Shown here: piece by piece, positions 919-63,139 of the stretch | Layout of the letters: each line of letters opens with the position of its first letter | Position numbering within the stretch: the first letter of the stretch is position 1 | NCBI RefSeq assembly: GCF_013283195.1 | Contig: NZ_JABEKT010000003.1 | Span: 504,994-568,993, forward strand | DNA length: 64,000 nt | Reading direction: 5' to 3' | Source of the DNA: Ensifer adhaerens | GTDB taxonomy: Bacteria; Pseudomonadota; Alphaproteobacteria; Rhizobiales; Rhizobiaceae | The notes under the pieces: model-generated | Told to the model about the DNA's origin: nothing | Databases searched by the model: none | Seen by the model: only the letters and a program-made list of their open reading frames with translations | Made by a program: the position numbers and the translations under genes

Positions 919-943
919 AACAGCCCAACCGATCAAGTGTTCC
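919..943 (-). promoter_or_regulatory. EcfG-type promoter for SDR gene
   Basis: On the minus strand GGAAC (943-939) is followed after 17 bases by GTT (921-919), matching the general-stress sigma factor pattern. The -10 element is 30 bp from the start codon at 889. Confidence 0.65.
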
Positions 944-973
944 ACACTGATGGGCAGAAAGAGCTACCACCGG

Positions 974-998
974 GGAACACACCGTCTCGCTCGTTGTT
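974..998 (+). promoter_or_regulatory. EcfG-type promoter for 24-residue peptide gene
   Basis: GGAAC (974-978), 17 bases, GTT (996-998), 28 bp upstream of the ATG at 1026. It is divergent from the SDR promoter at 919-943. Confidence 0.65.
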
Positions 999-1025
999 AC
1001 GACCTCACAGCAAAGGAGTGTGGAT

Positions 1026-1100
1026 ATGAACCAGATTGTCTATCTCGTCGGACTTGTCGTCATCGTGATCGCCGTTCTCTCGTTCTTCGGGTTGAGTTGA
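1026..1100 (+). CDS. 24-residue hydrophobic membrane peptide
   Basis: A tiny ORF beginning MNQIVYLVGLVVIVIAVLSF and ending GLS. It is almost entirely one predicted transmembrane helix. Support comes from a near-perfect Shine-Dalgarno (AAGGAG at 1013-1018, spacing 7) and an EcfG-type promoter 28 bp upstream. Similar very short single-helix proteins are, from memory, common and unannotated in Rhizobiales; the function is unknown. Too short for ordinary gene callers. Confidence 0.7.
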   Translation: MNQIVYLVGLVVIVIAVLSFFGLS

Positions 1101-1107
1101 GCAGGCC

Positions 1108-1602
1108 TCATCGTAACGACAGTCCCTGACCGCTGCGCACTGTAGGGGTCCCCCGACTGTGATCGCCAAGTGCAACGATAACATCGGTCACGTCGCGCGC
1201 AGCGCGCAGCCGCGCCAACAGTTCTGGGTCCCGAAAGATTCGGGAATGACGGGCAAGTGCAGGCAGAAAGCCATTCTGGCGCGACGTCGGCCAGATCAAC
1301 ATGATGACGACATCGACGGGTACATTTATGTCGTGGTTGAAGATAACGGGGTCCCGAAGAAGGATCAAAAGCTTGAGTGGTTCCGGCAGTTTGCGAAGAA
1401 AAGCATGCGGAATTGCCACGCCAGCACTATTAGCAGTGGAACCTAGCTTCTCACTTTCCCGCACTGCCTTCAAGATTTCCTCCGACGGTAGTCCGGCAGC
1501 TTTGGCAAGGACCAGTGAACCCGCCTTGAGGACCCTATCAACGTCCGTGGCGAGAAGCCCGGTGATTATCTCCTCCGGGGAAAAGAAAGGGCTCTCCAAC
1601 AT
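1108..1602 (-). CDS. PTS IIA (EIIA-Ntr/fructose-like) domain protein
   Basis: A 164-residue protein with a single PTS EIIA type-2 domain. The phosphoacceptor histidine lies in the motif GVAIPHAF. Family members (PtsN-like) receive phosphate from the Npr/HPr chain and act as regulators in the cytoplasm; no permease domain is fused or adjacent. The ATG at 1602 has a strong AAGGAGGT at spacing 5, whereas the longer reading frame to 1779 would overlap the divergent otsB start. Upstream on the same strand GGAAC (1656-1652) is followed 17 bases later by ATT rather than GTT, a possible weak EcfG promoter. The C-terminal 15 residues look unlike the family. Confidence 0.8.
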   Translation of the reverse strand: MLESPFFSPEEIITGLLATDVDRVLKAGSLVLAKAAGLPSEEILKAVRESEKLGSTANSAGVAIPHAFLRKLPEPLKLLILLRDPVIFNHDINVPVDVVIMLIWPTSRQNGFLPALARHSRIFRDPELLARLRAARDVTDVIVALGDHSRGTPTVRSGQGLSLR

Positions 1603-1740
1603 ATCGACCTCCTTGCAATTGCTATCATCCAAATTCGCCAGATGCTTCATTGTTCCTGAGGTGCGATCGCCAAGAGACGAACGCCAAGTTTTCCGTTCAC
1701 CCCACTTGCCGGTAAGCGACACAATCCTATCTGGTAGACG

Positions 1741-3005: not shown

Positions 3006-3044
3006 AGCACGCTCGATGTCGGTTCTACATGGCATCGCACCGGT

Positions 3045-3323
3045 TCAACCACGGACCTTTTGCCTTTCGCGCTTGTTCACATCGTCCCGCATTCGTTTTA
3101 GCCAAAAACGTTGGCCTGCCTGGTTGATATAGGAAGACAGAAGCGACATCATCGATCGAACCAACTTCGAACGGACGTACTGGCGTGCGACCATCGACCG
3201 CGAGGCTGTTCTGTTTTCGAAAGCCTGCTGGGGCGCTGACATCTCGGCTGCTCTCATCGGCTCGATCTTTTCTTTTGTGACTTTCCTTGAATTTTTCTTC
3301 TTTGCTCGTTTCTCTTTTGCCAT
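3045..3323 (-). CDS. Small basic protein, divergent DUF3175-like
   Basis: A 92-residue very basic protein starting MAKEKRAKKKNSRKVTKEK. The C-terminal half, with SMMSLLSSYINQAGQRF, resembles the core of DUF3175 proteins (remembered pattern: S-MLTFYINRAGKNL), but the middle segment does not match, so it may be divergent or have internal frame changes. The start at 3323 has GAGGTG four bases upstream, and an EcfG-type promoter lies 82 bp upstream. Function unknown; nucleic-acid binding is possible from charge only. Confidence 0.5.
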   Translation of the reverse strand: MAKEKRAKKKNSRKVTKEKIEPMRAAEMSAPQQAFENRTASRSMVARQYVRSKLVRSMMSLLSSYINQAGQRFWLKRMRDDVNKRERQKVRG

Positions 3324-3404
3324 CTGACACCTCACGATCAATCTCCCGGACTGCATATTGGATAGGCATACCGGGGCACTCATAAGAACGCTCTCGGCTA
3401 CTCC

Positions 3405-3429
3405 AACCTCCGCCCGTAGCGATCGTTCC
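3405..3429 (-). promoter_or_regulatory. EcfG-type promoter for DUF3175-like gene
   Basis: On the minus strand GGAAC (3429-3425), 17 bases, GTT (3407-3405), 82 bp upstream of the start at 3323. Confidence 0.55.
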
Positions 3430-5522: not shown

Positions 5523-5547
5523 GGAACAGAATGGATCAAACATTGTT
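5523..5547 (+). promoter_or_regulatory. EcfG-type promoter upstream of 5573 ORF / DUF982 gene
   Basis: GGAAC (5523-5527), 17 bases, GTT (5545-5547). The next good start codon is the short ORF at 5573 (26 bp away), followed by the DUF982 gene at 5863. Confidence 0.55.
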
Positions 5548-8122: not shown

Positions 8123-8389
8123 TCAATACAAAGCATAGATTGAGATATCGATACGATAACTTTTGTCCGAAGCCGTGTGCGTTCGTGGACGAACGAGCCA
8201 GAGAGCGCATTCCGAGAGCGAGGTTTCGTCGCGGTTTCCCATGGCAAATTCATCGGCAATGAACCTTGCAACATACTCACCGCGCGCTCCCCTGCGCTGG
8301 ATGTTGGCGCTCAGGCACGCCCGGTCGTGAACCCTTCGCAGCATGGCGACATCCTCTGGCGTCGGCCCTTGGGTCGTTACTTCTTTCAT
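8123..8389 (-). CDS. Conserved small protein, Rhizobiales type
   Basis: An 88-residue soluble protein with no named domain that I can assign. The pattern PEDVAMLRRVHDRAC, then GEYVARFIADEF and a Glu/Ser-rich turn, resembles a family of small rhizobial proteins that pair a helical N-terminus with an A-x-x-L/F-I helix; I cannot name a function. The start at 8389 is strongly supported by GGAGGAGGTG two bases upstream and by an EcfG-type promoter 68 bp upstream. It converges on DUF763 with a 2-bp gap. Confidence 0.7.
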   Translation of the reverse strand: MKEVTTQGPTPEDVAMLRRVHDRACLSANIQRRGARGEYVARFIADEFAMGNRDETSLSECALWLVRPRTHTASDKSYRIDISIYALY

Positions 8390-8456: not shown

Positions 8457-8481
8457 AACCACGAAGGGGCGTCTTTGTTCC
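8457..8481 (-). promoter_or_regulatory. EcfG-type promoter for the 88-residue protein
   Basis: On the minus strand GGAAC (8481-8477), 17 bases, GTT (8459-8457), 68 bp upstream of the start at 8389. Confidence 0.6.
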
Positions 8482-10707: not shown

Positions 10708-10732
10708 GGAACTTCGACCGTCGGCAGCGGTT
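10708..10732 (+). promoter_or_regulatory. EcfG-type promoter for caa3 oxidase operon
   Basis: GGAAC (10708-10712), 17 bases, GTT (10730-10732), 105 bp upstream of the subunit II start and in the divergent gap shared with the dehydrogenase. Confidence 0.5.
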
Positions 10733-10836: not shown

Positions 10837-11805
10837 ATGATCTTGACGCTGCCGTTGATAATCTCGTGTCAAGGCGAGCAATCGACGCTAAACACGGCCG
10901 GCAGCGAAGCAGAGGATATTGCCCATCTGATCGTCGTGACTGCCGCCGCCGGGGCAATCGTCTGGGTTTGCGTCGTCGGCCTGATGCTTTTCGCGGCTGC
11001 CCGACGCGGCGAGCCGATGGCAGAGCAAAGTGCAGGCCTTGTTATCGCCTGGGGCGGCGTGGTGTTGCCAGCCAGTCTCCTCTTCATACTCCTTGCTTAT
11101 GTGCTGTTTTCCATGCCGGCTACCCGTCCGTGGTTCGAGAAGAGCCGCGCCGACGTCGAGATCGAAATTACCGGCGAGCAGTATTGGTGGCGCGTTCGTT
11201 ATCTCGACGAACGGGGCAACGTTCTGTTTGAAAACGCCAACGAGATACGCCTTCCGGCGGGCCGGAAAGTAAGACTGTTGCTGAGGGCGCATGACGTCAT
11301 CCACTCGTTCTGGCTACCTTCACTTGCCGGGAAGATGGACATGATCCCTGGCCGAACCAATATTCTTTGGCTCGAACCTGAACGCGTGGGGATCTATCGC
11401 GGACCTTGCACGGAGTTTTGCGGCACCTCGCATACGCGAATGTCGATGCAGGCCCTGGTGCTTGAACCTCAAGCCTTCGCTTCCTGGGTGGAGGAAGTAT
11501 CCTCTGCGCGCAAGTCTCCGGCAGATGCAAGGGCTCACGGGCAGGAAGCCTTTCTGCAACACGGCTGCGGCGCCTGCCATGCAATCGATGGTACGGCTGC
11601 CCGCGGCCGGCTCGGCCCCAACCTGACCCGGCTTTTTGAACGCGATCGGATCGGGGCAGGCGCAAGTGCCAACGACCCAAGCGGCCGCATGGCCTTTGTT
11701 AGAAACGCAGGCGCCATCAAGCCCGGTGCGTTGATGCCGGCCTTCCCGGAAATAAACGAAAGCGACCTGCGTGCGATAAGCGACTATCTGGGAGCCGCGA
11801 GATGA
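10837..11805 (+). CDS. ctaC: Cytochrome c oxidase subunit II with fused cytochrome c (caa3 type)
   Basis: A 322-residue subunit II. The N-terminal LPLIISCQ could be a lipoprotein signal. Two transmembrane helices follow (about residues 30-55 and 70-95), then the periplasmic CuA domain with the ligand set HDVIHSFW ... CTEFCGTSH ... M. A C-terminal cytochrome c domain carries the haem site CGACH and a probable Met ligand in LMPAFPE. Such fusions accept electrons directly from soluble cytochrome c or a periplasmic donor. The start has only a weak ribosome site. First gene of a five-gene operon whose members overlap by 4 bp stop/start junctions. Confidence 0.92.
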   Translation: MILTLPLIISCQGEQSTLNTAGSEAEDIAHLIVVTAAAGAIVWVCVVGLMLFAAARRGEPMAEQSAGLVIAWGGVVLPASLLFILLAYVLFSMPATRPWFEKSRADVEIEITGEQYWWRVRYLDERGNVLFENANEIRLPAGRKVRLLLRAHDVIHSFWLPSLAGKMDMIPGRTNILWLEPERVGIYRGPCTEFCGTSHTRMSMQALVLEPQAFASWVEEVSSARKSPADARAHGQEAFLQHGCGACHAIDGTAARGRLGPNLTRLFERDRIGAGASANDPSGRMAFVRNAGAIKPGALMPAFPEINESDLRAISDYLGAAR

Positions 11806-14324
11806 CGTGGACAATATCGGCCCCTGACGAAACGAGCCGCGATAGGGCAGGCGAGGAGGCACGCCTGCGCGCAGTGTGGAGCAATCCACCCGGCTGGCGT
11901 TATTGGACGACTGTCAACAACACGCAGATCGGGCTTTGGTACTGTGCGACGGCCTTCGCCTTCATGCTGTTTGCAGGCGTGTTGGCACTGCTGATCCGCG
12001 TTCAGCTGGCGACCCCGCGAAACGATTTTCTCACCGCGGAGGTCTTCAACCAGGTTTTCACCCTGCATGGCACCGTCATGATGTTCCTTTTCGCCGTTCC
12101 GATCTTCGAGGCGATCGCGATCTTCCTTCTGCCACCAATGCTCGGTGCGCGCGAACTGCCGTTTCCGCGCCTCTCGGCTTTCGGCTTCTGGAGCTTTCTT
12201 CTGGGCGGTGTTTTCGTGTGCGGTTCCATATTCTTCGATGCCGCGCCAAACGCCGGCTGGTTCATGTATCCCCCGCTTGCCACCGACAAGGCCTATTCCG
12301 GCATCGGGGCCGACATATGGCTACTGGGACTTTCCTTCATCGAGGTGGCCTCGATTGCCGCAGCGGTGGAATTGATCGTCGGCATCATGAAATGCCGCGC
12401 TCCGGGGATGCGCATCAACATGATGCCGCTGTTTGCCTGGTATCTCCTGATCGTTGCAGGAATGATCCTGTTTGCCTTCCCGCCGCTGATTGCCGGCGAC
12501 ATCCTTTTCGAGATGGAACGAATGTTCGACTGGCCGTTTTTCGACGCGGCGCGCGGAGGCGACCCGCTGTTATGGCAGCACCTCTTCTGGATATTTGGCC
12601 ATCCGGAAGTCTATATCATCTTCCTGCCGGCGATCGCCTTGATGGCCATGATTGTTCCCACCTTCGCCCGACGTCCGATTGTCGGCTATTCGTGGATCGT
12701 GCTGGCAGCAGTCGGCACAGGCTTCCTCAGCTTCGGGCTGTGGGTGCATCACATGTTCACAACAGGGCTTCCGCAGATTTCGCTCGCCTTTTTCTCGGCG
12801 GCATCCGAGGCGGTCGCAATTCCGACCGGTGTCCAGATATTCGTTTTTATCGCCACCATGCTCGCCGGCCGTGTCCTGTTCACCGTACCCATGCTGTTTG
12901 GCACGGGAGGGCTGGCGATCTTCATAATCGGCGGGCTGACCGGGGTGATGGTCGCCCTGGTGCCGATCGACTGGCAGGCTCACGACACCTATTTCGTGGT
13001 GGCTCACCTTCATTACGTTCTGATCGGTGGGATGCTTTTCCCGATCGTCGCCGGGCTCTACTATTATTATCCCCTGGTGAACGCCAGGAAGCTATCCGAC
13101 CGCCTCGGCAAGTTCGCCTTCTGGCACATGTTCGTCGGATTCAACGTGGCGTTTTTCCCGATGCACCTGTCGGGATTGTGGGGAATGCCGCGAAGGGTAT
13201 TCACCTACGAGGAGGGAACGGGTCTCGATGTCTTGAACCTGACATCGACCATCGGTGCCTTTGTCTTCGCGGCTGGTGTCTTGATCGTGGTTGCCGACGT
13301 GGTCAGGCCCAAACACCGCCAACCCAAGGAAGAGTTCAATCCGTGGAATGCCGGCACGCTCGAGTGGATCAGCGAACCGGAGGAAAACTGGGGCGTTCGC
13401 TCGATCCCGATCATTGCCAGCCGCTATCCGCTTTGGGATCAGCCAGAGCTAAGAGCAAAAATCAACGCGGGTGACTTCTACCTTCCCGATGCCAGGGAAG
13501 GTTATCGTGAGACACTGGTCACCTCGGTGCTTGATGCCGAGCCAATCCAGTGCCTGAGGGTCGGCGGAACGTCGATGCTGACTATTCTGAGCGCGGTTGC
13601 ACTCGGTGGTGTTTTTGTCGCCACCACATTCCATTGGTGGGTAGTGGCCGGCGTTTGCGGGATGGTGTTCATCGTGGCGGTCTGGTGGTGGCTTTGGACG
13701 GGGACGGGAGCCATTCCAGAGCATGTCGACAAGAACGTTGGCCTCGGTTTGCGCCTGCCACTTTATGTGTCCGGGCCGGCTTCTGTCGGTTGGTGGGCCA
13801 TGTTTATCACCATGGTGGGGGATGGTACGGCATTCGGAAGCCTGATCTTCGGTTACTTCTTCTATTGGACGATACACGACGACTTCACCGCAGGCCTGCC
13901 CGGTCCCGGATGGGTGTGGCCGTCAATATCCCTTCTCTTGTTCCTGGCGGCGTGGGTCGCATTGATCGCGGCGCGCAGGGCGAACCGGGCCGGGTCAACA
14001 GGTGTCACGAGACTGCTCTTAGGGCTCGTTTTGATCCTGGACCTTTCGGCTGCAGCGAGCGCGCTTGTCGGCCCCACGACAACCGGCATGGACCGGGTCG
14101 TCCATGTTTATCCCGCAATCGTATGGATCCTGCTTGGCTGGCTAGTCCTCCATGCGCTGGTCGGTGCACTCATGATCTTCTATTGCGCGGCTCGCAGCTT
14201 CCGGGGGCTGATGAACCGTGAGCATGACGGAGACCTCGTCAACGTAGTGCTCTATTGGCACTTTCTCACCATTACCGCGTTAACAACGTTAACGGTCGTC
14301 GGTTTTTTCCCGGCGCTGCGATGA
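11802..14324 (+). CDS. Cytochrome c oxidase subunit I-III fusion
   Basis: An 840-residue integral membrane protein joining subunit I (about residues 1-560) and subunit III (about 590-840). Subunit I motifs: LHGTVMMFLFAVP (haem a ligand), HLFWIFGHPEVYI (CuB His and the cross-linked Tyr), WVHHMFTTG (CuB His pair), and VVAHLHYVLIGGM (haem ligands). The C-terminal part has helices of the CtaE type, although it is shorter than full subunit III. It catalyses oxygen reduction coupled to proton pumping in the inner membrane. The ATG overlaps the stop of subunit II by 4 bp, implying translational coupling. Confidence 0.92.
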   Translation: MTWTISAPDETSRDRAGEEARLRAVWSNPPGWRYWTTVNNTQIGLWYCATAFAFMLFAGVLALLIRVQLATPRNDFLTAEVFNQVFTLHGTVMMFLFAVPIFEAIAIFLLPPMLGARELPFPRLSAFGFWSFLLGGVFVCGSIFFDAAPNAGWFMYPPLATDKAYSGIGADIWLLGLSFIEVASIAAAVELIVGIMKCRAPGMRINMMPLFAWYLLIVAGMILFAFPPLIAGDILFEMERMFDWPFFDAARGGDPLLWQHLFWIFGHPEVYIIFLPAIALMAMIVPTFARRPIVGYSWIVLAAVGTGFLSFGLWVHHMFTTGLPQISLAFFSAASEAVAIPTGVQIFVFIATMLAGRVLFTVPMLFGTGGLAIFIIGGLTGVMVALVPIDWQAHDTYFVVAHLHYVLIGGMLFPIVAGLYYYYPLVNARKLSDRLGKFAFWHMFVGFNVAFFPMHLSGLWGMPRRVFTYEEGTGLDVLNLTSTIGAFVFAAGVLIVVADVVRPKHRQPKEEFNPWNAGTLEWISEPEENWGVRSIPIIASRYPLWDQPELRAKINAGDFYLPDAREGYRETLVTSVLDAEPIQCLRVGGTSMLTILSAVALGGVFVATTFHWWVVAGVCGMVFIVAVWWWLWTGTGAIPEHVDKNVGLGLRLPLYVSGPASVGWWAMFITMVGDGTAFGSLIFGYFFYWTIHDDFTAGLPGPGWVWPSISLLLFLAAWVALIAARRANRAGSTGVTRLLLGLVLILDLSAAASALVGPTTTGMDRVVHVYPAIVWILLGWLVLHALVGALMIFYCAARSFRGLMNREHDGDLVNVVLYWHFLTITALTTLTVVGFFPALR

Positions 14325-14710
14325 GAGGTTTCATGCGGTTACTTCCACGCGAGCTCGAGACCCTTTGGACGCTGTTTACGGCGCCGGTTGTCTGGGCGCT
14401 GCATTTCCTCGTCTGCTATCTGACCGTGGCGATCCACTGCGCTAAGGTCGATCCCGGCGCATCGCTTGCGGCGATCCGCTTTATGCTTGCAGTCGCGACG
14501 GTCCTGGCGCTTGCCACCATCGTTTTGTCGGCAACACTCGCCTGGCGGCAATGGGGCTTTGGAACGCAGGAGCCGCCGCATGAAGAGCCGACGCGCGAGG
14601 ATCGCAGACTGTTTCAAGGGTTCGCAACGCTGTTGTTGTCTGCGCTCAGCTTCGTATCTGTGCTGTTTGTCGCATTGCCGCTTGCGGCCATCGAGAGGTG
14701 CGCGTCATGA
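14321..14710 (+). CDS. Small membrane protein of the caa3 operon
   Basis: A 129-residue protein with three to four predicted helices (for example LFTAPVVWALHFLVCYLTVAI, IRFMLAVATVLALATIVLSA and TLLLSALSFVSVLFVALPLA). No named domain; similar small proteins sit between oxidase genes and ctaG in alphaproteobacterial caa3 operons as I remember them. The ATG at 14321 overlaps the preceding stop; a second ATG at 14333 has the better ribosome site (GAGAGG). A role in oxidase assembly or stability is inferred from position only. Confidence 0.72.
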   Translation: MRGFMRLLPRELETLWTLFTAPVVWALHFLVCYLTVAIHCAKVDPGASLAAIRFMLAVATVLALATIVLSATLAWRQWGFGTQEPPHEEPTREDRRLFQGFATLLLSALSFVSVLFVALPLAAIERCAS

Positions 14711-15339
14711 GAAAGCACTGGTTCTGTCTGGCGGCTTTGGTCACAGCACTCGCGTTCGGGGCCTCCCTTCAGACCCTGGTCGCCAGAGCTTTCGTCGGCC
14801 ACATGGGCGTCCACATGATCCTTGTCGCGATCTGCGCACCCTTGTTTGCTATTTCATTTCATGGCACCGCAGTCGACGTCAGTCGCCATTGGCAGGCGAC
14901 GAGCACGCTCCTGCTCTCCCTGATCGAGCTGGTTGTTATTTGGGCCTGGCATTTTCCGGCTATTCGCCAGGCCGCGGAAACGTCGAGCGCCGTGCGCACG
15001 CTTGAACTGGTGAGCTTCCTTACCGTCGCCACCCTTTTCTGGCTCGCCTGTATGAATAGCGCTCCGCGGCAGGGAGGAACACTTGCAGGCATCGGCGCGT
15101 TGCTCCTGACTTCGATGCACATGACCCTGCTCGGCGTCCTTTTGACCATGGCACCCCGGGCTCTTTACGGCGGGACAGAAGTAACGTGCCTCGGCCTGAC
15201 CTTGACCCCATTGGAGGATCAACAGCTCGGAGGGATCCTCATGCTTCTAGTAGGGGCAGCGAGCTACCTGGTCGGCGCACTGATCCTTTTGGGGAGGCAG
15301 TTAGCCAATGCAGATCGATGGCAGGAAAGGCGATCATGA
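14707..15339 (+). CDS. ctaG: Cytochrome c oxidase assembly factor CtaG (caa3 type)
   Basis: A 210-residue polytopic protein matching the caa3_CtaG family: HMGVHMILVAICAPL near the N-terminus, WAWHFPAIRQ in the centre, and DQQLGGILMLLVG near the C-terminus. This family helps assemble caa3-type oxidases, probably through copper delivery to the CuB site, and is unrelated to the Cox11-type CtaG. The ATG overlaps the previous stop and has GAGAGG eight bases upstream. It supports reading the whole operon as one oxidase plus its assembly factor. Confidence 0.88.
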   Translation: MRKHWFCLAALVTALAFGASLQTLVARAFVGHMGVHMILVAICAPLFAISFHGTAVDVSRHWQATSTLLLSLIELVVIWAWHFPAIRQAAETSSAVRTLELVSFLTVATLFWLACMNSAPRQGGTLAGIGALLLTSMHMTLLGVLLTMAPRALYGGTEVTCLGLTLTPLEDQQLGGILMLLVGAASYLVGALILLGRQLANADRWQERRS

Positions 15340-16358
15340 AGCGCTGCCTGACTTGTATCGCCGGCGCTGTGGTGATTGCCGGAGTGGGTGGACTAAGTAT
15401 CGCGGGGCTCGGTCTCGTCGATGTCGGGGCGGCGAGCGGCCACTATGCCATGACGGAGTGGGTCCTGCACAGCGTCATGCGCGCATCGGTTCGCACAGCG
15501 GCAATAGGCATCGAGGCTCCCAAGACGCGAGCTCCCGAAAGCGGTATGACTATTGCCGCTGTGCATTTTGAGAGGGCCTGCTCCACTTGCCACGGTTCGC
15601 CACGGCGCAAACAGTCCCCCGATGTACTCGCCATGCTTCCGCCTCCTCCCGACCTTTCGCAAAGCATTGGTTCATGGAGCGCCGAGGAGTTGTTCGTGAT
15701 CGTCAGGGACGGGATCCGCTATACGGGGATGCCGGCCTGGCCCGCGACCCATCGCGACGACGAGGTCTGGACGATGGTCGCATTTCTTCGAAAACTTCCT
15801 GGGCTTGATCCTGCGGGTTACTCAAATCTTTTGAATGCGCGGCACATTCAAAAAGGTCGAAGTTGCGCGCAGTGCCATGATGGGAAAAATGCGCTCGCCC
15901 CTAACTTCCAGAACCAAAGTGAGATTTACCTGCGCAACAGCTTGACTGGTTACCTGGAAGGAAAGCGATCAAGCGGCATCATGCAGGTGGTGGTCGCGGG
16001 AATGGATCTGCAGGAGATTGCGAACATAACAGGTGAATATTCCAAGACTGCAAGGAACTGTCGCCATATTGGGACCGCTTCAGCCCCCACGCTAGTCGTT
16101 GAGGGAGATGAAGTGCGAAAAATACCCGCTTGCAATGGGTGCCACGATGGGAAACGACCCGACTATCCAGTGCTCGACGGCCTTCCGGCTGCCTATATCG
16201 CCACTCAGCTGGCGCTGTTTCGTGGAGGAAATCGGGTTGAGAGTGTTAATCAGGAAAGGATGGCTTTCGCGGCACGTAACCTGACGGATGAGGACATGTG
16301 GCTGGTATCGAAACACTTCTCCTCACAGGCGCCATTGAATAGCGCCTGCGAGGAATGA
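15336..16358 (+). CDS. Tri-haem c-type cytochrome
   Basis: A 340-residue exported cytochrome c. The N-terminus is a signal or anchor (CIAGAVVIAGVGGLSIAGLG). Three haem attachment sites are visible: CSTCH (about residue 88), CAQCH (about 176) and CNGCH (about 268), each followed by a small cytochrome c domain; MPAW after the first supplies a candidate Met ligand. The start overlaps the ctaG stop and has AGGAAAGG just upstream. It is probably the periplasmic electron carrier or a subunit feeding the caa3 oxidase, possibly from the PQQ-type dehydrogenase next door (inference). Confidence 0.87.
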   Translation: MKRCLTCIAGAVVIAGVGGLSIAGLGLVDVGAASGHYAMTEWVLHSVMRASVRTAAIGIEAPKTRAPESGMTIAAVHFERACSTCHGSPRRKQSPDVLAMLPPPPDLSQSIGSWSAEELFVIVRDGIRYTGMPAWPATHRDDEVWTMVAFLRKLPGLDPAGYSNLLNARHIQKGRSCAQCHDGKNALAPNFQNQSEIYLRNSLTGYLEGKRSSGIMQVVVAGMDLQEIANITGEYSKTARNCRHIGTASAPTLVVEGDEVRKIPACNGCHDGKRPDYPVLDGLPAAYIATQLALFRGGNRVESVNQERMAFAARNLTDEDMWLVSKHFSSQAPLNSACEE

Positions 16359-16370: not shown

Positions 16371-16982
16371 TTAGAGGGTTGTACCATACCGCCGACGTTC
16401 GTCTTCGATTTCGGTCGACGTATAAGGCGCCGAACGGTCGTCGAACCGGCGCCAGCCGGCAGCTGCGTATGCTTGACGGCGCCCGGCAGGATCGACCGAA
16501 TTGTTGCGCAGGATTGTCTCGGCTTCATCGACAAGTCCTTCATCGACGCGAGCGGTCACTACGCTCCCTCCGCGACGGATACTTTCAGCATAGAGATGGG
16601 CATCGTCCTCGCTGACACCCGAATCCGTCATGGCGCCAATGATCCCACCAACCGCGCCACCGGCAACAGCGCCGGCGGCTGCCCCGGCTGCAGTCGCCGC
16701 CAGCCATCCGGCCGCCACAACTGGTCCAACGCCGGGGATTGCCATCAGCCCAAGCCCGGTCAACAGTCCCACAGCACCGCCCCCGGCCGCACCGAGGCCC
16801 GCTCCGGCTCCGGCACCTTCCCCGGCATTCGAATCTCTGTCGGAGTAACGATCCGAATAGCGATCGTCGGCATTGTTGGCGATAATGCTGATGTCTGCGG
16901 AGGGCACACCCGCGGCCTCGAGTTGAACCACGGCGTTCGTTGCATCGTCGTAATTGTCGAAAAGACCAGATACGGTTCTCAT
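16371..16982 (-). CDS. YflT/GS17M-like stress protein with glycine-zipper
   Basis: A 203-residue protein. The N-terminus (TVSGLFDNYDDATNAVVQLE ... ISIIANN) and the later GGSVVTARVDE segment match the heat-induced YflT / general stress 17M-like domain. Between them, residues 55-120 form an Ala/Gly-rich membrane-like stretch (GLMAIPGVGPVVAAGWLAAT and AGGAVGGIIGAM) that resembles a glycine zipper. Function is unknown; probably membrane-associated. The start at 16982 has AGGAG at spacing about 8. It follows the PepSY gene by 14 bp and is probably co-transcribed from that gene's EcfG-type promoter. Confidence 0.82.
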   Translation of the reverse strand: MRTVSGLFDNYDDATNAVVQLEAAGVPSADISIIANNADDRYSDRYSDRDSNAGEGAGAGAGLGAAGGGAVGLLTGLGLMAIPGVGPVVAAGWLAATAAGAAAGAVAGGAVGGIIGAMTDSGVSEDDAHLYAESIRRGGSVVTARVDEGLVDEAETILRNNSVDPAGRRQAYAAAGWRRFDDRSAPYTSTEIEDERRRYGTTL

Positions 16983-17354: not shown

Positions 17355-17379
17355 AACCCGCCAATTCGCGATTGGTTCC
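17355..17379 (-). promoter_or_regulatory. EcfG-type promoter for PepSY-YflT operon
   Basis: On the minus strand GGAAC (17379-17375), 17 bases, GTT (17357-17355), 47 bp upstream of the start at 17308. Confidence 0.65.
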
Positions 17380-17447: not shown

Positions 17448-17448
17448 T

Positions 17449-18132: not shown

Positions 18133-18157
18133 GGAACAATAGTCGGGTCGCGTGGTT
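18133..18157 (+). promoter_or_regulatory. EcfG-type promoter for DUF2934-CBS-HD operon
   Basis: GGAAC (18133-18137), 17 bases, GTT (18155-18157), 34 bp upstream of the start at 18191. Confidence 0.65.
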
Positions 18158-19798: not shown

Positions 19799-19823
19799 GG
19801 AACCAAAATGGCGGCGTGGAGTT
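19799..19823 (+). promoter_or_regulatory. EcfG-type promoter for 19858-CBS-DUF982 operon
   Basis: GGAAC (19799-19803), 17 bases, GTT (19821-19823), 35 bp upstream of the start at 19858. Confidence 0.65.
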
Positions 19824-21240: not shown

Positions 21241-21522
21241 TCAGCCATCCAAGTGACGGCCGCGTTGACCGCAATCGAAGTGTGCAGCACCCATCTTGCC
21301 GTGTGACGCACGCACTTCTCTAATGTCGAGCATAAGGCGGAAGAGCCATCTTCGAAGGTCGGTTCCGATCCGGTAAGATGGGAGTTCCCGAACTGCGCGA
21401 TGCAGTGTCCTTTGGACCAGGAGCCGGGATTGCTCTGGGTCAGGTTCAAGGGAACTTGCAAACCCCTTGAGCGAAGGCAACAGGCCAACTACGTCAAACT
21501 CCTTTCCCGATCCGGTTACCAT
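21241..21522 (-). CDS. Sigma-region-2-only mini-protein
   Basis: A 93-residue protein that resembles region 2 of alphaproteobacterial ECF sigma factors: LLPSLKGFASSLEPDPEQS, LLVQRTLHRAV, and GTDLRRWLFRLMLDI follow the pattern LP.L..FA.SL..D...A.DLVQ.TL.RA...GTN.RAWLF.I. Region 4 is absent and the acidic DDLVQ core is changed to RLLVQ. It cannot be a normal sigma factor. A paralogue of the same length is at 59554-59832. The start at 21522 has GAGGA at spacing 5 and an EcfG-type promoter 30 bp upstream. Possible decoy or anti-sigma ligand (inference). Confidence 0.6.
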   Translation of the reverse strand: MVTGSGKEFDVVGLLPSLKGFASSLEPDPEQSRLLVQRTLHRAVRELPSYRIGTDLRRWLFRLMLDIREVRASHGKMGAAHFDCGQRGRHLDG

Positions 21523-21551
21523 CGTTTTCCTCAACCTCCGTTACCACAATC

Positions 21552-21577
21552 AACGCGCATCCGGGCTCCTTCGTTCC
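21552..21577 (-). promoter_or_regulatory. EcfG-type promoter for first mini-sigma gene
   Basis: On the minus strand GGAAC (21577-21573), 18 bases, GTT (21554-21552), that is GGAAC-N17-CGTT, 30 bp upstream of the start at 21522. The spacer is one base longer than at the other sites. Confidence 0.5.
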
Positions 21578-46777: not shown

Positions 46778-46868
46778 GGTGAGGTTTCCTTTGGAATGAG
46801 TGCGCGTGTCATCGACCAGCCGAACCGCCCGGCCGGATGCGCTGTGATTGGGGAGGGGTGTGCTGGCT

Positions 46869-50025: not shown

Positions 50026-50376
50026 TCAGCCAAGCCGGGGGCAACCAGGTCGATTAGCAAATGCCACGGTAACTAACCGCCCACGTCGCTGACCGTCAAC
50101 AACGATTTGTCGGCGTGTCACCGTCTGAATTTCGGGATCTCGTACCCCAAGTCGCGATGCGCGACGAAGGGCTTGCCGTTCGCTACAACCCGGCCGCACG
50201 TACTCCTCGTCGTAATATCGACCGTCTCGGTCGCGATCGCGGAACTCCATGTCAGGGCGCCCATTCGGACCGATATATAGATCCAATGATTGGGCCCATG
50301 ACGTGGATGAAATGGCAGAAAGTGCTCCGACCGCGAGCAGGCCTGCTGCCAGAATATTGTGAAGGGACTTTCGCAT
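50026..50376 (-). CDS. Small exported protein
   Basis: A 116-residue protein with a clear signal peptide (ILAAGLLAVGALSAISSTSW, cleavage near AQS) and a mature part rich in Arg/Asp/Gly (GRPDMEFRDRDRDGRYYDEE, GCSERQALRRASRLG). No named family; such periplasmic proteins are common in rhizobia. GAGGAGG lies 5-7 bases before the ATG at 50376 and a fully canonical EcfG-type promoter is 42 bp upstream. Confidence 0.75.
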   Translation of the reverse strand: MRKSLHNILAAGLLAVGALSAISSTSWAQSLDLYIGPNGRPDMEFRDRDRDGRYYDEEYVRPGCSERQALRRASRLGVRDPEIQTVTRRQIVVDGQRRGRLVTVAFANRPGCPRLG

Positions 50377-51284
50377 GTCCGCCTCCTCTGTAAAGTTCAA
50401 TTGACCATAGAGGTCCGAACGATGAAGGAACCGTAAGGTTCCCGACACCTTTGCTGCTCGGATGCCAGTCGCAGACGGCGAACGCATATCGGTCACCGCC
50501 GGAGCACACGGTCAACGCCTTCCTTCCGCCTTGTCCCGCGCTAAATCCTAGATGCAACAACCGCGCCGGCAGGAAATGAACAATTCCGCAGACAACTCAA
50601 ATCGGACCGATGAGCGAATGCCGCCTCCGGCGCCGAACCAAAAAATCTTAGGGTATCGGTTGAGGCGGTTGTCAGCGCCAATGACGGCGGAGCAGAAAAT
50701 GGGCCTTGTCAGCAACGAGGTCCGGAAATCACCGCGCCGCATCCATTGGTGTTCACGGAAAGCAAGCTAGCGCTTCGCCATCTTGCATCTGCATTTCGCC
50801 GTGATCTTGGCACGATCGGGCGGCGTCTCCTGACGGCTTCATCCGCGCTGATCAACACGATCAAATCGGCAGCGAGCCAACGATTGCCGCACGACACCAA
50901 GTTGAAGGCGGCTACCAGGCTGTCCTGCGTGACCAGAGGCATAGCCGGCGGATTAGGTGCCATCACCACGCCGGCATGGTTTCGTTCCCTGCGAACTCCG
51001 CTACGGTCATGGAAGGTCGGTATTGCGACGGGGCTTCTGAGCGTCTTGATCTTGGCGATCGGAACGATGACATGGGTATTGAAGGGTGCCCCTGGTGCCC
51101 TTAGAAGCCAAGCAGCGTTGTGCGCACACGGCAGCTTGCGCGTCAACTCGATCGGTCCCGTCAGTCCACTATCAGCGGTCACGCCCGGTACGAGGACACG
51201 CCAGGCTTAGTCGCCGACCAGAACCGGACTTGGCGTTGCGCTGCTGGTCTGGGCTCCGTCATAACAGCCCGGGATCGTGAATAT
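50377..51284. other. Gap with no supported gene
   Basis: About 900 bp upstream of the hicB remnant. Open frames on both strands around 50709-51210 overlap each other and start only with TTG or GTG without ribosome sites. The EcfG-type promoter at 50418-50442 lies here. Confidence 0.4.
50418..50442 (-). promoter_or_regulatory. EcfG-type promoter for the exported protein
   Basis: On the minus strand GGAAC (50442-50438), 16 bases, CGTT (50421-50418), 42 bp upstream of the start at 50376; matches the consensus including the C. Confidence 0.7.
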
Positions 51285-56829: not shown

Positions 56830-56854
56830 GGAACGATTTGCCGCCTCATCGGTT
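56830..56854 (+). promoter_or_regulatory. EcfG-type promoter for the Ku operon
   Basis: GGAAC (56830-56834), 17 bases, GTT (56852-56854), 34 bp upstream of the first Ku start. Confidence 0.7.
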
Positions 56855-56887: not shown

Positions 56888-57784
56888 ATGGCTGCCCCCA
56901 GAGCGAATTGGAAAGGCTTCATCAAGTTTGGTGAAGTTGCCTGTGCCGTCGCCCTCTACACTGCAGCATCGTCATCCGAACGTGTGGCCTTCAACACCCT
57001 CAATCGTAAAACTGAAAATCGGGTCCGCCGGGAGTTCATCGATAGCGAGACTGGAGATCCTGTCGAGCGGGAAGATCAGGTCAAAGGTTACGAGACCGAA
57101 AGTGGCCGGTACGTCGTTCTGGAGCCTGAAGAAATCGCGGCCGCTGTCCCAGACAGCGACAAAACATTGAAGATCGAAGCCTTCATTCCCTGCTCGCAGA
57201 TCGACACGACCTATTTCGACAAACCCTATTACATAGCCCCGGACAAACTGGGCGCCGACGCCTTCATGCTCCTTCGTGACGGTATGAAGCTTGAAAATGT
57301 TGCCGCCATCGCGCGCACGGTTCTTTTCCGCCGGATGCGCACCGTCCTGATGCGCTCACATGGCAAAGGGTTGATCGCATCCACCCTCAACTTCGACTAT
57401 GAAGTGCGCTCGGCCGAGAAGGCTTTCGAAGGTGTTCCGGACTTGAAGATCGAAGGCGAAATGCTCGATCTCGCCGAGCACATCATCGAAAAGAAAAAGG
57501 GCAGTTTCGACGCCAGCAAGTTCGACGATCGCTACGAGGCCGCTGTCGTCGAACTGGTCAAGGCCAAGCTGGAAGGGCGGTCGCTTCCCAAAAAGAAAGT
57601 GCCCGCCGCGTCGAAACCGGGCGATCTTCTCAAGGCACTGCGCGAAAGCGCGGGCTTGGGCACGACGACGGCAAAGACCAAGCGCGGGGCCGTCAACGCC
57701 AACAAGGGTGCTACCCGCAAGAAACCCCAAACGACAGCTACCCGGTCGAAATCCGCTTCCGCGCCGAAGCGGCGTGCCAGCTAA
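56888..57784 (+). CDS. ku: Ku protein (first copy)
   Basis: A 298-residue bacterial Ku homologue for non-homologous end joining. The Ku core reads WKGFIKFGEVACAVALYTAA, FNTLNRKTENRVRREFIDSE, REDQVKGYE, YFDKPYYIAPD and EHIIEKKKGSFDASKFDDRY (about residues 7-215). The C-terminus (about 235-298) is a Lys/Arg/Ala/Thr-rich tail, which in other Ku proteins contributes DNA binding. GAGGAG is close before the ATG. The second Ku gene starts 16 bp downstream. No ligD is in the window. Confidence 0.93.
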   Translation: MAAPRANWKGFIKFGEVACAVALYTAASSSERVAFNTLNRKTENRVRREFIDSETGDPVEREDQVKGYETESGRYVVLEPEEIAAAVPDSDKTLKIEAFIPCSQIDTTYFDKPYYIAPDKLGADAFMLLRDGMKLENVAAIARTVLFRRMRTVLMRSHGKGLIASTLNFDYEVRSAEKAFEGVPDLKIEGEMLDLAEHIIEKKKGSFDASKFDDRYEAAVVELVKAKLEGRSLPKKKVPAASKPGDLLKALRESAGLGTTTAKTKRGAVNANKGATRKKPQTTATRSKSASAPKRRAS

Positions 57785-57799
57785 ACGGAGAATGCGTCC

Positions 57800-58606
57800 A
57801 TGCCGGTTCGTCCCTATTGGAAGGGCTATCTCAAGCTCTCGCTGGTCACCTGCCCAGTTCAGATGATGCCAGCCATCTCCGACAACGAAAAGGTTCGCTT
57901 CCACACGCTGAACCGCGAAACCCAGAACCGCGTCATCAGTCACTACGTGGATTCGGTCAGCGGCGAGGAAGTCGAGGAGGAGGATCAGGTCAAAGGCTAT
58001 CAGCGTGGGGAGGACGAATACCTGGTGCTGGAAGACGAAGAACTCGAGAATATCGCACTGGACAGCACCAACACGATTGAAATTGAGACCTTCACACAGC
58101 GCGACAGCGTCGAATGGATCTGGTTCGATACACCCTACTATCTTTCTCCCAACGACCCTGTCGGCCAGGAAGCGTTTTCCGTCATCCGTGATGCGATGGA
58201 AGCCAAGGATATGGTCGGGATCTCCCGCCTGGTCATCAGGCGGCGAGAGCGCGCGGTTTTGCTGGAGCCGCGCGGCAAAGGGATTGTCTTGTGGACTTTG
58301 CGCTACGGTGACGAAGTGAGAGACGAAGAGGGCTACTTTGCCGGTATTGGCGACGCGAACGCCGATTCCGATCTGATGCCGCTCGTTCGACAATTGATCA
58401 AGAAGAAGACCACCGAATGGAATCCGAAGCTGGTCGTCGATCCGGTGCAAGACCGGCTGCTTGACATTATCAACGCCAGGAAAAAGCATCTGAAGAAGCC
58501 GGGCAAGGCCACGCCAAAATCAGCCGATCCGGAATCAAGCAATGTCATCAACATCATGGATGCACTGAAAAAGTCCGTTGCGGCCGAAACAAGGTCAAAG
58601 AAGTGA
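57800..58606 (+). CDS. ku: Ku protein (second copy)
   Basis: A 268-residue Ku homologue: PYWKGYLKLSLVTCPVQMMP, HTLNRETQNRVISHYVDSVS, EEEDQVKGYQ, IWFDTPYYLSPND and LIKKKTTEWNPKLVVDPVQD. It differs clearly from the first copy and has a shorter Lys-rich tail. In Sinorhizobium-type bacteria several Ku paralogues exist and some are thought to act as pairs; a heterodimer is plausible here but unproven. GGAG lies about 9 bases upstream. Confidence 0.93.
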   Translation: MPVRPYWKGYLKLSLVTCPVQMMPAISDNEKVRFHTLNRETQNRVISHYVDSVSGEEVEEEDQVKGYQRGEDEYLVLEDEELENIALDSTNTIEIETFTQRDSVEWIWFDTPYYLSPNDPVGQEAFSVIRDAMEAKDMVGISRLVIRRRERAVLLEPRGKGIVLWTLRYGDEVRDEEGYFAGIGDANADSDLMPLVRQLIKKKTTEWNPKLVVDPVQDRLLDIINARKKHLKKPGKATPKSADPESSNVINIMDALKKSVAAETRSKK

Positions 58607-59494: not shown

Positions 59495-59519
59495 GGAACA
59501 AAGCCATATCCGCCATGTT
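59495..59519 (+). promoter_or_regulatory. EcfG-type promoter for second mini-sigma gene
   Basis: GGAAC (59495-59499), 17 bases, GTT (59517-59519), 35 bp upstream of the start at 59554. Confidence 0.65.
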
Positions 59520-59553: not shown

Positions 59554-59832
59554 ATGACGATCATGGTGAGGGAGATGAAGGTCCTAGACATCATGCCGGA
59601 TCTGAGGAAATGGGCGCAATCGATGCGCTCGAATCCCGTCCAGTCAGCGGCGCTGGTTGAAGAGACGCTCGAACTGGCCCTTGAGGAGTTCGAGGCCTTC
59701 ATCCGCTCACCCGATCAAAGACTGTGGCTCTTCAAACTGATGAAGGACATCCAGCGCGGTCACGTAGCGCCAAGATCGACGATTGCGACCGCTCGAAGTA
59801 CCCTGACGGGCGCGGCCATTTCATGTCGTTAA
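59554..59832 (+). CDS. Sigma-region-2-only mini-protein (second copy)
   Basis: A 92-residue protein aligned with 21241-21522 over its whole core: VLDIMPDLRKWAQSMRSNPV, QSAALVEETLELALEEFEAF and RLWLFKLMKDIQRGH correspond to VVGLLPSLKGFASSLEPDPE, QSRLLVQRTLHRAV and RRWLFRLMLDIREVR. Both resemble region 2 of ECF/EcfG sigma factors with the DNA-melting residues eroded, and neither has region 4. The ATG at 59554 has AAAGG at spacing 6; ATGs at 59563 and 59578 are possible. An EcfG-type promoter lies 35 bp upstream. See finding on decoy role. Confidence 0.6.
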   Translation: MTIMVREMKVLDIMPDLRKWAQSMRSNPVQSAALVEETLELALEEFEAFIRSPDQRLWLFKLMKDIQRGHVAPRSTIATARSTLTGAAISCR

Positions 59833-60005: not shown

Positions 60006-60030
60006 GGAACATCCAAGCAAGAGGAAAGTT
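60006..60030 (+). promoter_or_regulatory. EcfG-type promoter for DUF892-katE
   Basis: GGAAC (60006-60010), 17 bases, GTT (60028-60030), 35 bp upstream of the DUF892 start. katE, 75 bp after DUF892, has no such site of its own. Confidence 0.65.
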
Positions 60031-60064
60031 CTATACGTCGCGAACCATCCAATAGGAGAACAAA

Positions 60065-60565
60065 ATGGCGACCCAAAAGACACTCAATGATCTCTTTCTT
60101 GATACGCTGAAGGACATCTACTTTGCTGAGAAGCAAATCCTGAAGGCGCTGCCGAAGATGGCCCGTGCTGCTCAGGCCGAGGAAGGCAAGGCAGGATTTC
60201 TGAAGCACCGTGACGAAACCCAGGCACAGGTCGAACGGCTGGAGGAGATCTTCGAGCTTCTTGGTAAACCGGCGCGCGGCAAGACGTGCGAGGCGATTCA
60301 GGGCCTCATTGCCGAGGGTGAAGAAATCATCGAAGAGTACAAAGGGACTGCCGCGCTCGATGCCGGCCTCATTTCTTCGGCACAATCGGTTGAGCACTAC
60401 GAAATCGCCCGCTACGGCACGCTTATCGCTTGGGCGAAACAGCTGGGGCTCAAGGCAGCTGTTCCGTTGCTGGAGGCAAACCTGGCGGAGGAAGTCGCCA
60501 CCGACAAGAAGTTGACAGAGCTCGCCACTGCTTCGGCAAACGCCAAGGGGGCTAGGGCCGCGTGA
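60065..60565 (+). CDS. DUF892 (YciE-type) ferritin-like protein
   Basis: A 166-residue four-helix ferritin-like protein: LNDLFLDTLKDIYFAEKQIL, GFLKHRDETQAQVERLEEIF, CEAIQGLIAEGEEIIEEYKG and QSVEHYEIARYGTLIAWAKQ carry the conserved Glu/His metal ligands of the YciF/YciE family. It is linked to oxidative and general stress responses; the activity (iron binding or mineral storage) is unproven. AGGAG lies about 7 bases upstream. It is followed by katE in the same direction. Confidence 0.9.
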   Translation: MATQKTLNDLFLDTLKDIYFAEKQILKALPKMARAAQAEEGKAGFLKHRDETQAQVERLEEIFELLGKPARGKTCEAIQGLIAEGEEIIEEYKGTAALDAGLISSAQSVEHYEIARYGTLIAWAKQLGLKAAVPLLEANLAEEVATDKKLTELATASANAKGARAA

Positions 60566-60640
60566 ACCCGCAAATGGGAAGAAGACCGCGCCAGCACGGC
60601 CTTCTTCCCACCCGAGGCTTCAGGTGCTGGGAGAAACTCA

Positions 60641-62767
60641 ATGGCAAAAACAACGTCGAAGACCAACTCTAACACTGCAAAGATTCATGATCAGAGCCTC
60701 CATATTGGGAAAGGCGGCGAGCTCCATCAGTTTGCTGAGGACGGATTTTCGACCCTGACGACTGCGCAGGGTGCGCCGGTTGCCGATGACCAGAATACCT
60801 TGCGCGTTGGGCCCCGGGGTCCTGCACTTATCGAGGACTTTCATTTTCGCGAGAAGATCTTCCATTTCGATCATGAACGGATTCCGGAACGCGTGGTTCA
60901 CGCACGCGGCTACGGCGCGCATGGATTCTTCGAAACGTATGAGTCTCTGGCCGCCTATACACGCGCCGATATTTTTCAGCGCCCGGGCGAGAAGACGCCT
61001 GCGTTCGTCCGATTTTCGACAGTAGCCGGTAGTAAGGGTTCTTTTGACCTCGCGCGCGACGTACGCGGTTTCGCGGTAAAAATGTATACGAAGGAAGGAA
61101 ATTGGGATCTGGTCGGAAACAACATTCCCGTCTTCTTCATCCAGGATGCCATCAAGTTTCCTGACATCGTCCATTCCGTCAAGCCTGAACCCGACCGGGG
61201 GTTCCCCCAGGCACAGTCAGCTCACGACAATTTCTGGGACTTCATTTCGCTGACGCCCGAGAGCATGCACATGATAATGTGGGTGATGTCGGACCGAGCG
61301 ATTCCTCGTTCTTTCCGCTTCATGGAAGGATTTGGCGTTCACACCTTCCGCTTCGTCAACGCAAAAGACCAATCTACCTTTGTCAAGTTTCACTGGAAGC
61401 CGAAACTCGGCCTGCAGTCGGTCGCTTGGAACGAGGCTGTTAAGATCAATGGCGCGGATCCTGACTTCCATCGTCGCGATTTGTGGCAATCAATCCAATC
61501 CGGCAGTTATCCGGAATGGGAACTGTGCGTCCAGCTTTTCGATCAGGACTTCGCCGACAATTTCGACTTCGACATTCTCGACCCGACGAAGATCATTCCC
61601 GAGGAGGTGCTGCCGGTCCAGGCAATCGGTCGCCTGGTGCTCGACCGCATGCCTGACAACTTCTTCGCCGAGACCGAGCAGGTCGCCTTTATGACCCAGA
61701 ACGTTCCCCCCGGCATCGACTTCAGCAATGACCCACTTCTGCAGGGTCGCAACTTCTCCTATCTCGACACGCAACTGAAACGCCTTGGAGGTCCGAATTT
61801 TACGCACCTGCCGATCAATGCTCCCAAGTGTCCCTTCGCGCATTTCCAGCAGGATGGACACATGGCCATGCACAACCCGGTCGGACGGGTCAATTACCAA
61901 CCCAATTCTCACAACGATGGCCCGCGCGAAACACCCGTGGAAGGTTATCGCCATTTTCCTGCGGAAGAACAGGGATCGAAAGTTCGGATGCGTGCGGAGA
62001 GCTTCGCCGACCACTACAGTCAGGCAAGGCAATTCTACATCAGCCAAACGCCTCCCGAGCAGCGCCACATCGCCATGGCGCTCACGTTCGAGCTCAGCAA
62101 GGTCGAGATACCTGTAATCCGAGAGCGGATGGTTTCTCATCTTCTGAACATCGACGAGACTTTGGCCACGACGGTTGCTCAGAAGCTCGGGCTAAAGGGC
62201 ATGCCGGGCCCGGCGGCAGCGGCGATACCCACCCGACAGGACCTCCAGCCGTCTCCAGCCCTCAGCATCGTTGAGCGGGGGCCGCAGCGATTCGAGGGGC
62301 GCAAGCTGGGCATTCTGGTCACCGATGGAGTCGATACCAAACTGCTGAAGGGATTGACTCAAGCGGTGCAAAACGAGAAGGCCGTTGTTGAAATCGTTGC
62401 TCCGAAGGTCGGCGGCGTCACTGCCTCTGACGGCAGCTGGGTTGAGGCGCATCACATGATCGACGGCGGGCCGTCGGTTCTGTTCGACGCTGTCGCTATC
62501 CTCTCATCCCAACAGGCGATTGACGACCTCATGAAAGAGGCAACGGCACGCGACTTTGTCACCGATGCTTTCCAGCACTGCAAGTTCATAGGCTACGATC
62601 AGTCCGCCCTTCCGCTTCTGGAAAAGGCAGGAGTTGCGGACGCATTCGACGAGGGCGTCGTGGCGCTGCCGGGTGAGGACGGACTTTCCGCGTTCGTTTC
62701 TCAGTTGGGCAAGCTGCGCGTGTGGGGCAGAGAACCTTCCATAAAGCTCGGAAAGGCCTCGTCGTAG
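60641..62767 (+). CDS. katE: Large-subunit catalase HPII
   Basis: A 708-residue clade 2 haem catalase that breaks down hydrogen peroxide. The catalytic His is in [13 protein letters not shown] (H87), the active-site Asn in [10 protein letters not shown] (about 160), and the proximal haem Tyr in [12 protein letters not shown] (about 374). The C-terminal 150 residues form a DJ-1/glutamine amidotransferase-like domain ([11 protein letters not shown] ... [11 protein letters not shown]), the hallmark of HPII enzymes. No clear ribosome site was seen. Likely transcribed with the DUF892 gene from the EcfG-type promoter at 60006. Confidence 0.95.
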
Positions 62768-62785
62768 ATCGGCTCACGTGTAGAA

Positions 62786-62807
62786 GGCGCGGCGCTTGTG
62801 CCGCGCC
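62786..62807 (+). terminator. Hairpin after katE
   Basis: GGCGCGGC (62786-62793), loop of six, GCCGCGCC (62800-62807), about 20 bp after the katE stop. The following T run is poor (GTTCGTCTT), so it may act as a weak terminator. Confidence 0.55.
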
Positions 62808-63139
62808 GTTCGTCTTGAAACGGCCTTCGTCGACAGGCCGTCAAGTCTGTTAAAATCTTACCAGGATCATTTTCGCCCGCGCTGGCATTCCGGGCGCCTA
62901 CCAACTTGATCCGTCTCGTCCATGAGGCACGAGGGTGACGCGGCCAATTTTCAAAAGGGCGACAGATCCTCTCGTTTATGGCCTTGAGGCTAAGTCCAAC
63001 AGGCATCCTGGTTTCTGTAGGCAAGCGATGTTCCATTGACGCCAAGGCCGGGGCACATCGACATCCCCATGGAACATTCCCCTGTGTACCCGGTTCACCT
63101 TGCTCGAACGATAAAACGATAAGAACACCACAGGGACAA
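62808..63139. other. Intergenic region with one promoter
   Basis: About 330 bp between the katE hairpin and the next start codon. Apart from the EcfG-type site at 63071-63095 I see no gene or RNA. Confidence 0.5.
63071..63095 (+). promoter_or_regulatory. EcfG-type promoter upstream of SemiSWEET unit
   Basis: GGAAC (63071-63075), 17 bases, GTT (63093-63095). Genes downstream are the 67-codon ORF at 63140, SemiSWEET at 63343 and the sialidase-like gene. Confidence 0.6.

Follow-up and report, generated by a model that had tools for sequence, protein, structure and literature searches.

General-stress regulons of alphaproteobacteria are commonly pictured as dispersed. Two described rhizobial systems are among the closest to the element reported here. 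In Sinorhizobium meliloti, the RpoE2 (EcfG) regulon includes rpoE5, a sigma factor gene on pSymB that depends on RpoE2 (PMC3616915, PMC6180224) and whose mapped promoter has the form GGAAC-N17-ATT (PMC6180224). In Rhizobium etli, the EcfG1 consensus is GGAAC-N16-CGTT, and plasmid p42f carries EcfG2 (PF00052), of the ECF15 subgroup of extracytoplasmic-function (ECF) sigma factors (PMC3892343). We analysed a stretch of 64,000 nucleotides from Ensifer adhaerens, hereafter the window, in which a dense set of EcfG-type promoters very probably belongs to a plasmid-borne general-stress-response (GSR) regulon with EcfG as its main sigma factor. A search of open-access papers found no description of an EcfG island or of a protein that joins a receiver to a C-terminal sigma2 domain (receiver-sigma2), such as the one encoded next to the window.

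The window comprises positions 504994–568993 of contig NZ_JABEKT010000003.1 (C14) from a genome of 7.07 Mb assembled into 20 contigs. The 743-kb C14 carries repC and is therefore a plasmid-type replicon; the closest DNA and protein matches are plasmids of Ensifer/Sinorhizobium and other Rhizobiaceae, and megablast of the window against plasmids returned single genes or small groups only. The island extends beyond the window: about 50 EcfG-type sites, a few of which are to be expected by chance, are spread over some 90 kb with a conjugation block interrupting. Between 480 and 570 kb of C14, the 65.5 kb outside that block hold 39 sites with a 17-bp spacer (GGAAC-N17-GTT, N17 sites) and 10 with an 18-bp spacer (N18 sites); in bins of 20 kb, there are 22 sites at 480–500 kb and 15 at 500–520 kb, followed by 7, 1 and 8. 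Many lie directly upstream of stress genes, among them those for trehalose and glycogen enzymes, catalase, a DUF892 protein, Ku, an extra oxidase and small unknown proteins. The S. meliloti system resembles the island in promoter type and in an orthologous sigma factor with the same ATT promoter (PMC6180224), but pSymB 1385–1430 kb has 7 N17 sites only, and no receiver-sigma2 match was found in that stretch. EcfG2 is likewise plasmid-borne, with 14 N17 sites at 46–95 kb of p42f; it differs in being only 50% identical to the island sigma factor, and p42f matches the receiver half of receiver-sigma2 only, through single-domain receivers.

A preliminary description of the window had listed fifteen such sites and taken them for a dense stress regulon. 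All fifteen were recovered, fourteen with N17 and the one at 21552 with N18, but the list was incomplete, since the window contains 22 exact matches (20 N17, 2 N18). In 100 shuffles we counted 3.49 ± 2.00 matches with a maximum of 10, so the density is not that of shuffled sequence. Spacer length offers a control without circularity. In the stress parts of the window (1–24.5 and 49–64 kb, together 39.5 kb), the N17 spacer yielded 19 matches and every other spacer from 10 to 26 yielded 0–3, while each of the 29 other permutations of GGAAC combined with N17-GTT gave at most 3. For the conjugation block, the 24.5 kb in between, the earlier claim that sites are lacking holds in that there is no N17 peak; one exact match is nevertheless present, at 29900 in the relaxase gene. 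Neither the remaining 543 kb of C14 (20 N17 matches) nor a 340-kb chromosome sample (13) showed a clear excess over neighbouring spacers. Over the whole genome there are 263 N17, 166 N14 and 133 N21 matches, which suggests an excess of some 110 N17 sites; by a rough estimate, one third of this excess sits within the 65-kb island. The variant GGAAC-N17-ATT is only slightly raised across the island (5, versus 0–3 at other spacers).

Seven exact matches were missing from the earlier list. Those at 10077, 15076 and 29900 lie inside identified genes and look like chance. The matches at 4671 (+) and 4673 (−) are one palindrome scored on both strands, about 33 bp upstream of the probable start (4729) of an Exo_endo_phos gene; it is not conserved in Ensifer canadensis and may or may not be a real promoter. 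The last two, at 21040 and 59429, could be either promoters or chance matches.

The sites recur in relatives. Plasmid pT173c of E. canadensis shares many island genes, partly in the same order, and has 39 N17 and 11 N18 sites in 68 kb. For 45 orthologue pairs, a site precedes both members in 13, the E. canadensis member only in 6, the member described here only in 3, and neither in 23 (Fisher p = 1.2e-4); 13 of the 16 pairs with a site here thus have one in E. canadensis too. This test started from 70 E. canadensis genes, namely 69 of the 101 annotated features of the stretch and one unannotated orthologue of mini2 (see below), pairs below 45% identity being dropped; two places on C14 each contribute two pairs, and one of these places belongs to the 13. 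Among gene–locus pairs, 29 of 61 have a site, in a list that is redundant and mixes true with false ORFs. N17 peaks were also found in Shinella zoogloeoides (18), E. adhaerens W2-B9 (33), E. adhaerens Casida A (13) and R. etli p42f (14); they are weak in S. meliloti pSymB (7) and Sinorhizobium sp. RAC02 (6), and S. chiapasense, with 5, has none that is clear. Related islands are present on Ensifer and Shinella plasmids. The region adjoins conjugation genes and is patchy among relatives, receiver-sigma2 being present in 6 of the 8 genomes sampled from the genus. What these observations allow is a possibly mobile region, where the preliminary description had written of a probably mobile one. Spacer specificity, conservation between orthologues, recurrence in relatives and identity with the published motif together lend strong support to the dense EcfG-type regulon of the preliminary description.

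The sequence of the island motif agrees with the published EcfG consensus apart from the unconserved C. The genome has a PhyR–NepR–EcfG locus on contig C17 and a second PhyR–NepR pair on C1. The island has an ECF15 sigma factor gene of its own just left of the window (C14:504443–505075), recognised by its sigma2 and sigma4 domains and by its ECF15 relatives. Its product is 71.7% identical over residues 44–209 to that of the pSymB gene at 1405336, which we take to be rpoE5 because PMC6180224 gives its upstream site as that of rpoE5 (SMb21484). The putative promoter of the island gene (window 6..30, −) has the same GGAAC-N17-ATT form as the mapped rpoE5 promoter (PMC6180224). We inspected 16 loci, of which 12 have the sigma factor gene; two of these are one record, leaving 11 distinct loci. 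An ATT site precedes the gene in 9 of the 11, the exceptions being Shinella zoogloeoides and one further genome, which supports the ATT variant as a likely promoter for at least the island sigma gene. On pSymB, a weak NepR-like ORF (L074:20882–21088, −; E = 0.005, two-sequence profile) lies opposite the gene after rpoE5, in agreement with a remark in PMC6180224.

The island also encodes proteins that have a sigma2 domain but no sigma4 domain. Two are small and free-standing: mini1 (window 59554..59832, +; 92 aa), with an N17 site 34 bp upstream (59495..59519, +), and mini2 (21241..21534, −; 97 aa, or 93 aa if the start is the ATG at 21522), with an N18 site (21552..21577, −). They had been called mini-sigma genes, a name that does not fit, as they do not look like working sigma factors: both end soon after the equivalent of region 2.3, without the sigma4 domain and the promoter-binding end, and so lack one of the two domains by which we recognised an ECF sigma factor. 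Against the Pfam family PhyR_sigma2, mini1 scored E = 5.8e-7 and mini2 E = 5.8e-5, below the cut-off. The third is the receiver-sigma2 protein (C14:496125–496733), in which the receiver comes first and sigma2 last, the inverse of the order in PhyR. Its C-terminal part matched PhyR_sigma2 with E = 1.2e-7 in one scan and with 0.0014, below the cut-off, in another. It shares with PhyR a degenerate sigma2 domain and a receiver with phosphorylation residues (read by eye), and differs in domain order and in lacking sigma4; the minis differ further in having no receiver. The ECF motif DDLVQET, at positions that presumably contact core RNA polymerase, reads DALVERT in receiver-sigma2 and DAYVAAV in PhyR; the minis have AALVEET and RLLVQRT.

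In the predicted structure of an E. adhaerens receiver-sigma2 orthologue, the receiver leads through a disordered linker to three helices (mean pLDDT 76); the sigma2 domain of PhyR likewise has three helices (PMC12148442). The closest solved receivers are PDB 2lpm and SdrG (5ieb). We take 2lpm to be Sma0114; single GSR receivers of the SdrG and Sma0114 type lack a sigma2 domain. The mini2 model had a pLDDT of 55 and was not used. Compared with E. canadensis, receiver-sigma2 shows dN 0.19 and dS 1.75 (dN/dS about 0.11). The values for mini2 (dN 0.33, dS saturated) and for mini1 relative to the second mini of E. canadensis (dN 0.55, dS 1.20) do not demonstrate selection on the minis. The mini2 orthologue in E. 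canadensis is open and has the same N18 promoter. A search of the plasmid collection with mini1 was negative at E 0.01, although the protein has relatives in genomes of the genus. The second free mini of E. canadensis has an N17 site 50 bp upstream of its sigma2 domain; around its gene lies a further cluster of 14 N17 sites (pT173c 157.7–177.7 kb, L243). At loci L242 and L244–L250, frames of 147–186 aa begin with an unnamed N-terminal region and end in a sigma2-like domain; there are several of them in a genome, and several have no exact site upstream. The sigma2-only proteins are probably PhyR-like mimics.

Full-length receiver-sigma2 occurs in 27 of 394 sampled genomes of the family, in 8 genera, and Mesorhizobium metallidurans has one too. 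From 35 matches, six covering the receiver only and the locus described here were left out. The 28 others (547 kb) contain 163 N17 and 41 N18 sites, compared with 7–21 at other spacers; 11 control stretches, 220 kb in total and taken from the same genomes, have 5 N17 and 2 N18 sites and 2–8 at other spacers. At least 4 N17 sites were found at 20 of the 28 loci, which include close relatives and so are not independent, and at none of the 11 controls. A scan of genome contigs gave, among the matches listed, mostly single receivers; of the 79 loci listed, six were translated and three were used for modelling.

In the regulon that we propose, stress signals would act through PhyR, NepR would release EcfG, and the island promoters would fire together. 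Their products would safeguard DNA and respiration and help to keep the osmotic and redox state in balance, and the island sigma factor may add to the output of EcfG, feeding back on the switch. The sigma2-only proteins could act in the manner of PhyR, as decoys for NepR or for another sigma2 partner, and so tune the switch, the minis by feedback and the receiver protein by phosphorylation. Degeneracy, genomic context and likeness to PhyR suggest this decoy mechanism, which we regard as the leading reading of these proteins and as a serious possibility that falls somewhat short of an even chance. The most comprehensive proposal is tentative, and possible rather than probable: rhizobial plasmids would carry self-tuning GSR islands, equipped with dense EcfG promoters, a sigma factor of their own and an unrecognised class of sigma2-only decoys, receiver-gated or free, that bend the PhyR–NepR–EcfG system of the host.

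Several observations weigh against an EcfG regulon of this kind or against its tuning. Genome-wide, the reversed pattern at N17 occurs 264 times, so that the plain count of 263 N17 matches is not enriched. The sites are predictions, and some will probably be chance matches. In S. meliloti, overexpression of RpoE5 changed one gene only (PMC6180224), and because of this the island sigma factor, too, may do little; in an R. etli ecfG2 mutant, only 1 of 19 lowered units had the motif (PMC3892343). No NepR gene was found in the C14 island by profile search (PF18557 profile; two-sequence profile), and no exact site precedes the receiver-sigma2 gene here or in E. canadensis. The NepR-binding part of PhyR consists of sigma2 and sigma4, whereas the sigma2-only proteins offer sigma2 alone. 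Finally, 8 of the 28 receiver-sigma2 loci have at most 2 N17 sites, two of them none.

Alternatives concerning the promoters are less attractive. An origin of the whole set by chance or as repeat copies has a negligible probability: a few intragenic matches do look accidental and the genome-wide count does not exceed that of the reversed pattern, but shuffles, spacer scan and permutations rule out chance for the set, and the 39 spacer sequences, which have no common consensus, rule out repeats. That the sites serve an ECF sigma factor other than EcfG is improbable. Three further ECF proteins in the genome match PF22029 (one on C12, two on C1), and the promoters of R. etli EcfG2 remain undefined (PMC8103513); motif and spacer, however, agree with what has been published for EcfG1, and in S. 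meliloti the rpoE5 promoter depends on RpoE2.

For the sigma2-only proteins, three other readings compete with decoys. The minis might be halves of a split sigma factor, as in SigO–RsoA of Bacillus, and need a sigma4-only partner. RsoA is likewise sigma2 only and shows that such a protein can work in a two-protein sigma factor (PMC8103513), and ECF sigma chains in the PDB are better matches for the minis than PhyR is; yet, when 150 of 219 candidates in C14 480–570 kb were scored, the full ECF sigma factor was the sole sigma4 match, so no sigma4-only partner appeared, and the minis end after region 2.3 with a degenerate DDLVQET motif, which makes this reading quite unlikely. Alternatively, the minis and the C-terminus of receiver-sigma2 might be remnants of ECF sigma or PhyR genes in decay: the region holds a degenerate ecfG-like copy with a stop (window 19328–19800), and within the genus some members of the family seem to be truncated (L251, L252). 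We nevertheless find decay rather unlikely in view of the dN and dS of receiver-sigma2 (0.19 and 1.75), its full-length presence in 27 of 394 family genomes, and the open mini2 orthologue behind its N18 promoter. The three C-terminal helices of the receiver protein could, as a last option, form an ANTAR RNA-binding domain and make the protein an antiterminator. Foldseek matches include Rv1626 and EutV, which we take to be receiver-ANTAR proteins, but Pfam reports PhyR_sigma2 and no ANTAR, and the part can be aligned with ECF sigma2, so that an antiterminator is highly improbable.

What is new here is a family of sigma2 mimics and the link between it and GSR islands. If true, the inverted receiver-sigma2 protein would add another form of sigma mimicry to the one represented by PhyR, and, should receiver-sigma2 and the minis be decoys, the central stress switch of a host may be open to adjustment from its accessory replicons. 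The receiver-sigma2 gene also provides a simple marker for locating further GSR islands. For many unknown small genes, the promoter map offers testable regulation; the earlier statement that the promoters give these genes a function stands as far as co-regulation is suggested, whereas function itself is not indicated.

Genes were identified from ORFs downstream of the sites, Pfam and orthologues because self-trained gene calls missed many island genes; the Pfam scan covered 51 window ORFs. The listed sites had been placed 26–105 bp upstream of start codons, and 14 of the 15 do have an ORF of at least 40 aa starting within 105 bp; the exception is 974..998 (+), for which the first ORF of that size begins at a distance of 160 bp. 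The genes named behind them were confirmed. The site at 10708..10732 (+), conserved in E. canadensis, precedes the caa3-type oxidase operon, with coxB (10837–11805), CtaG (14698–15339) and cytochrome c (15336–16358) identified by Pfam and ctaD (11802–14324) by plasmid annotation. Pfam likewise identified the PepSY_2 gene (16997–17308) 46 bp from the site at 17355..17379 (−), followed by the YflT gene (16371–16982), and both CBS operons. One of these has its site at 18133..18157 (+), upstream of a small ORF (18191–18412) and then CBS and HD genes; the other has its site at 19799..19823 (+), 34 bp upstream of an ORF (19858–20067) followed by CBS (20054–20524) and DUF982 (20521–20787) genes. The degenerate ecfG-like sigma gene that contains a stop (19328–19800, −) ends at the latter site. 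Also by Pfam, the site at 56830..56854 (+) lies 33 bp upstream of a Ku gene (56888–57784) and then a second (57800–58606); these two tandem genes (56888–58606, +) stand behind a single site, and Shinella zoogloeoides has two Ku genes, then ligD. The site at 60006..60030 (+), conserved in E. canadensis, Shinella and RAC02, lies 34 bp upstream of the DUF892 gene (60065–60565), after which comes catalase (60641–62767). The PTS IIA gene of the preliminary description was not found, as ORFs 17440–17928 and 17685–18020 matched no Pfam family; a GGAAC-N17-ATT site does exist at 17927–17951 (−).

Among the other sites, 919..943 (−) is an exact match 29 bp upstream of an SDR gene (110–889). Hypothetical ORFs follow the sites at 3405..3429 (−; ORF 3045–3383), 8457..8481 (−; ORF 8123–8389, 67 bp away), 50418..50442 (−; ORF 50026–50400) and 63071..63095 (+; ORF 63140–63343), and that at 5523..5547 (+) has no identified downstream gene. 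Left of the window are genes for DUF6766, phospholipase-D-like, alpha-amylase-type (TreY in E. canadensis), PAS-HWE kinase, FMN reductase, starch/glycogen-synthase-type, another alpha-amylase-type and glycogen-debranching-type proteins, single receivers, receiver-sigma2 and the full ECF sigma factor. The PAS-HWE histidine kinase gene (C14:490594–491640) has an N18 site 35 bp upstream and a site in E. canadensis too; its product is a candidate input kinase within the island. Elsewhere on the replicon, C14:180000–270000 holds a second, weaker cluster of 17 N17 and 4 N18 sites. In the conjugation block, the relaxase (window 26944–30252, −) has MobA/MobL, helicase and BID-type C-terminal domains, and the plasmid backbone includes a 1748-aa protein with helicase and Eco57I-methylase-like matches (41687–46933, −).

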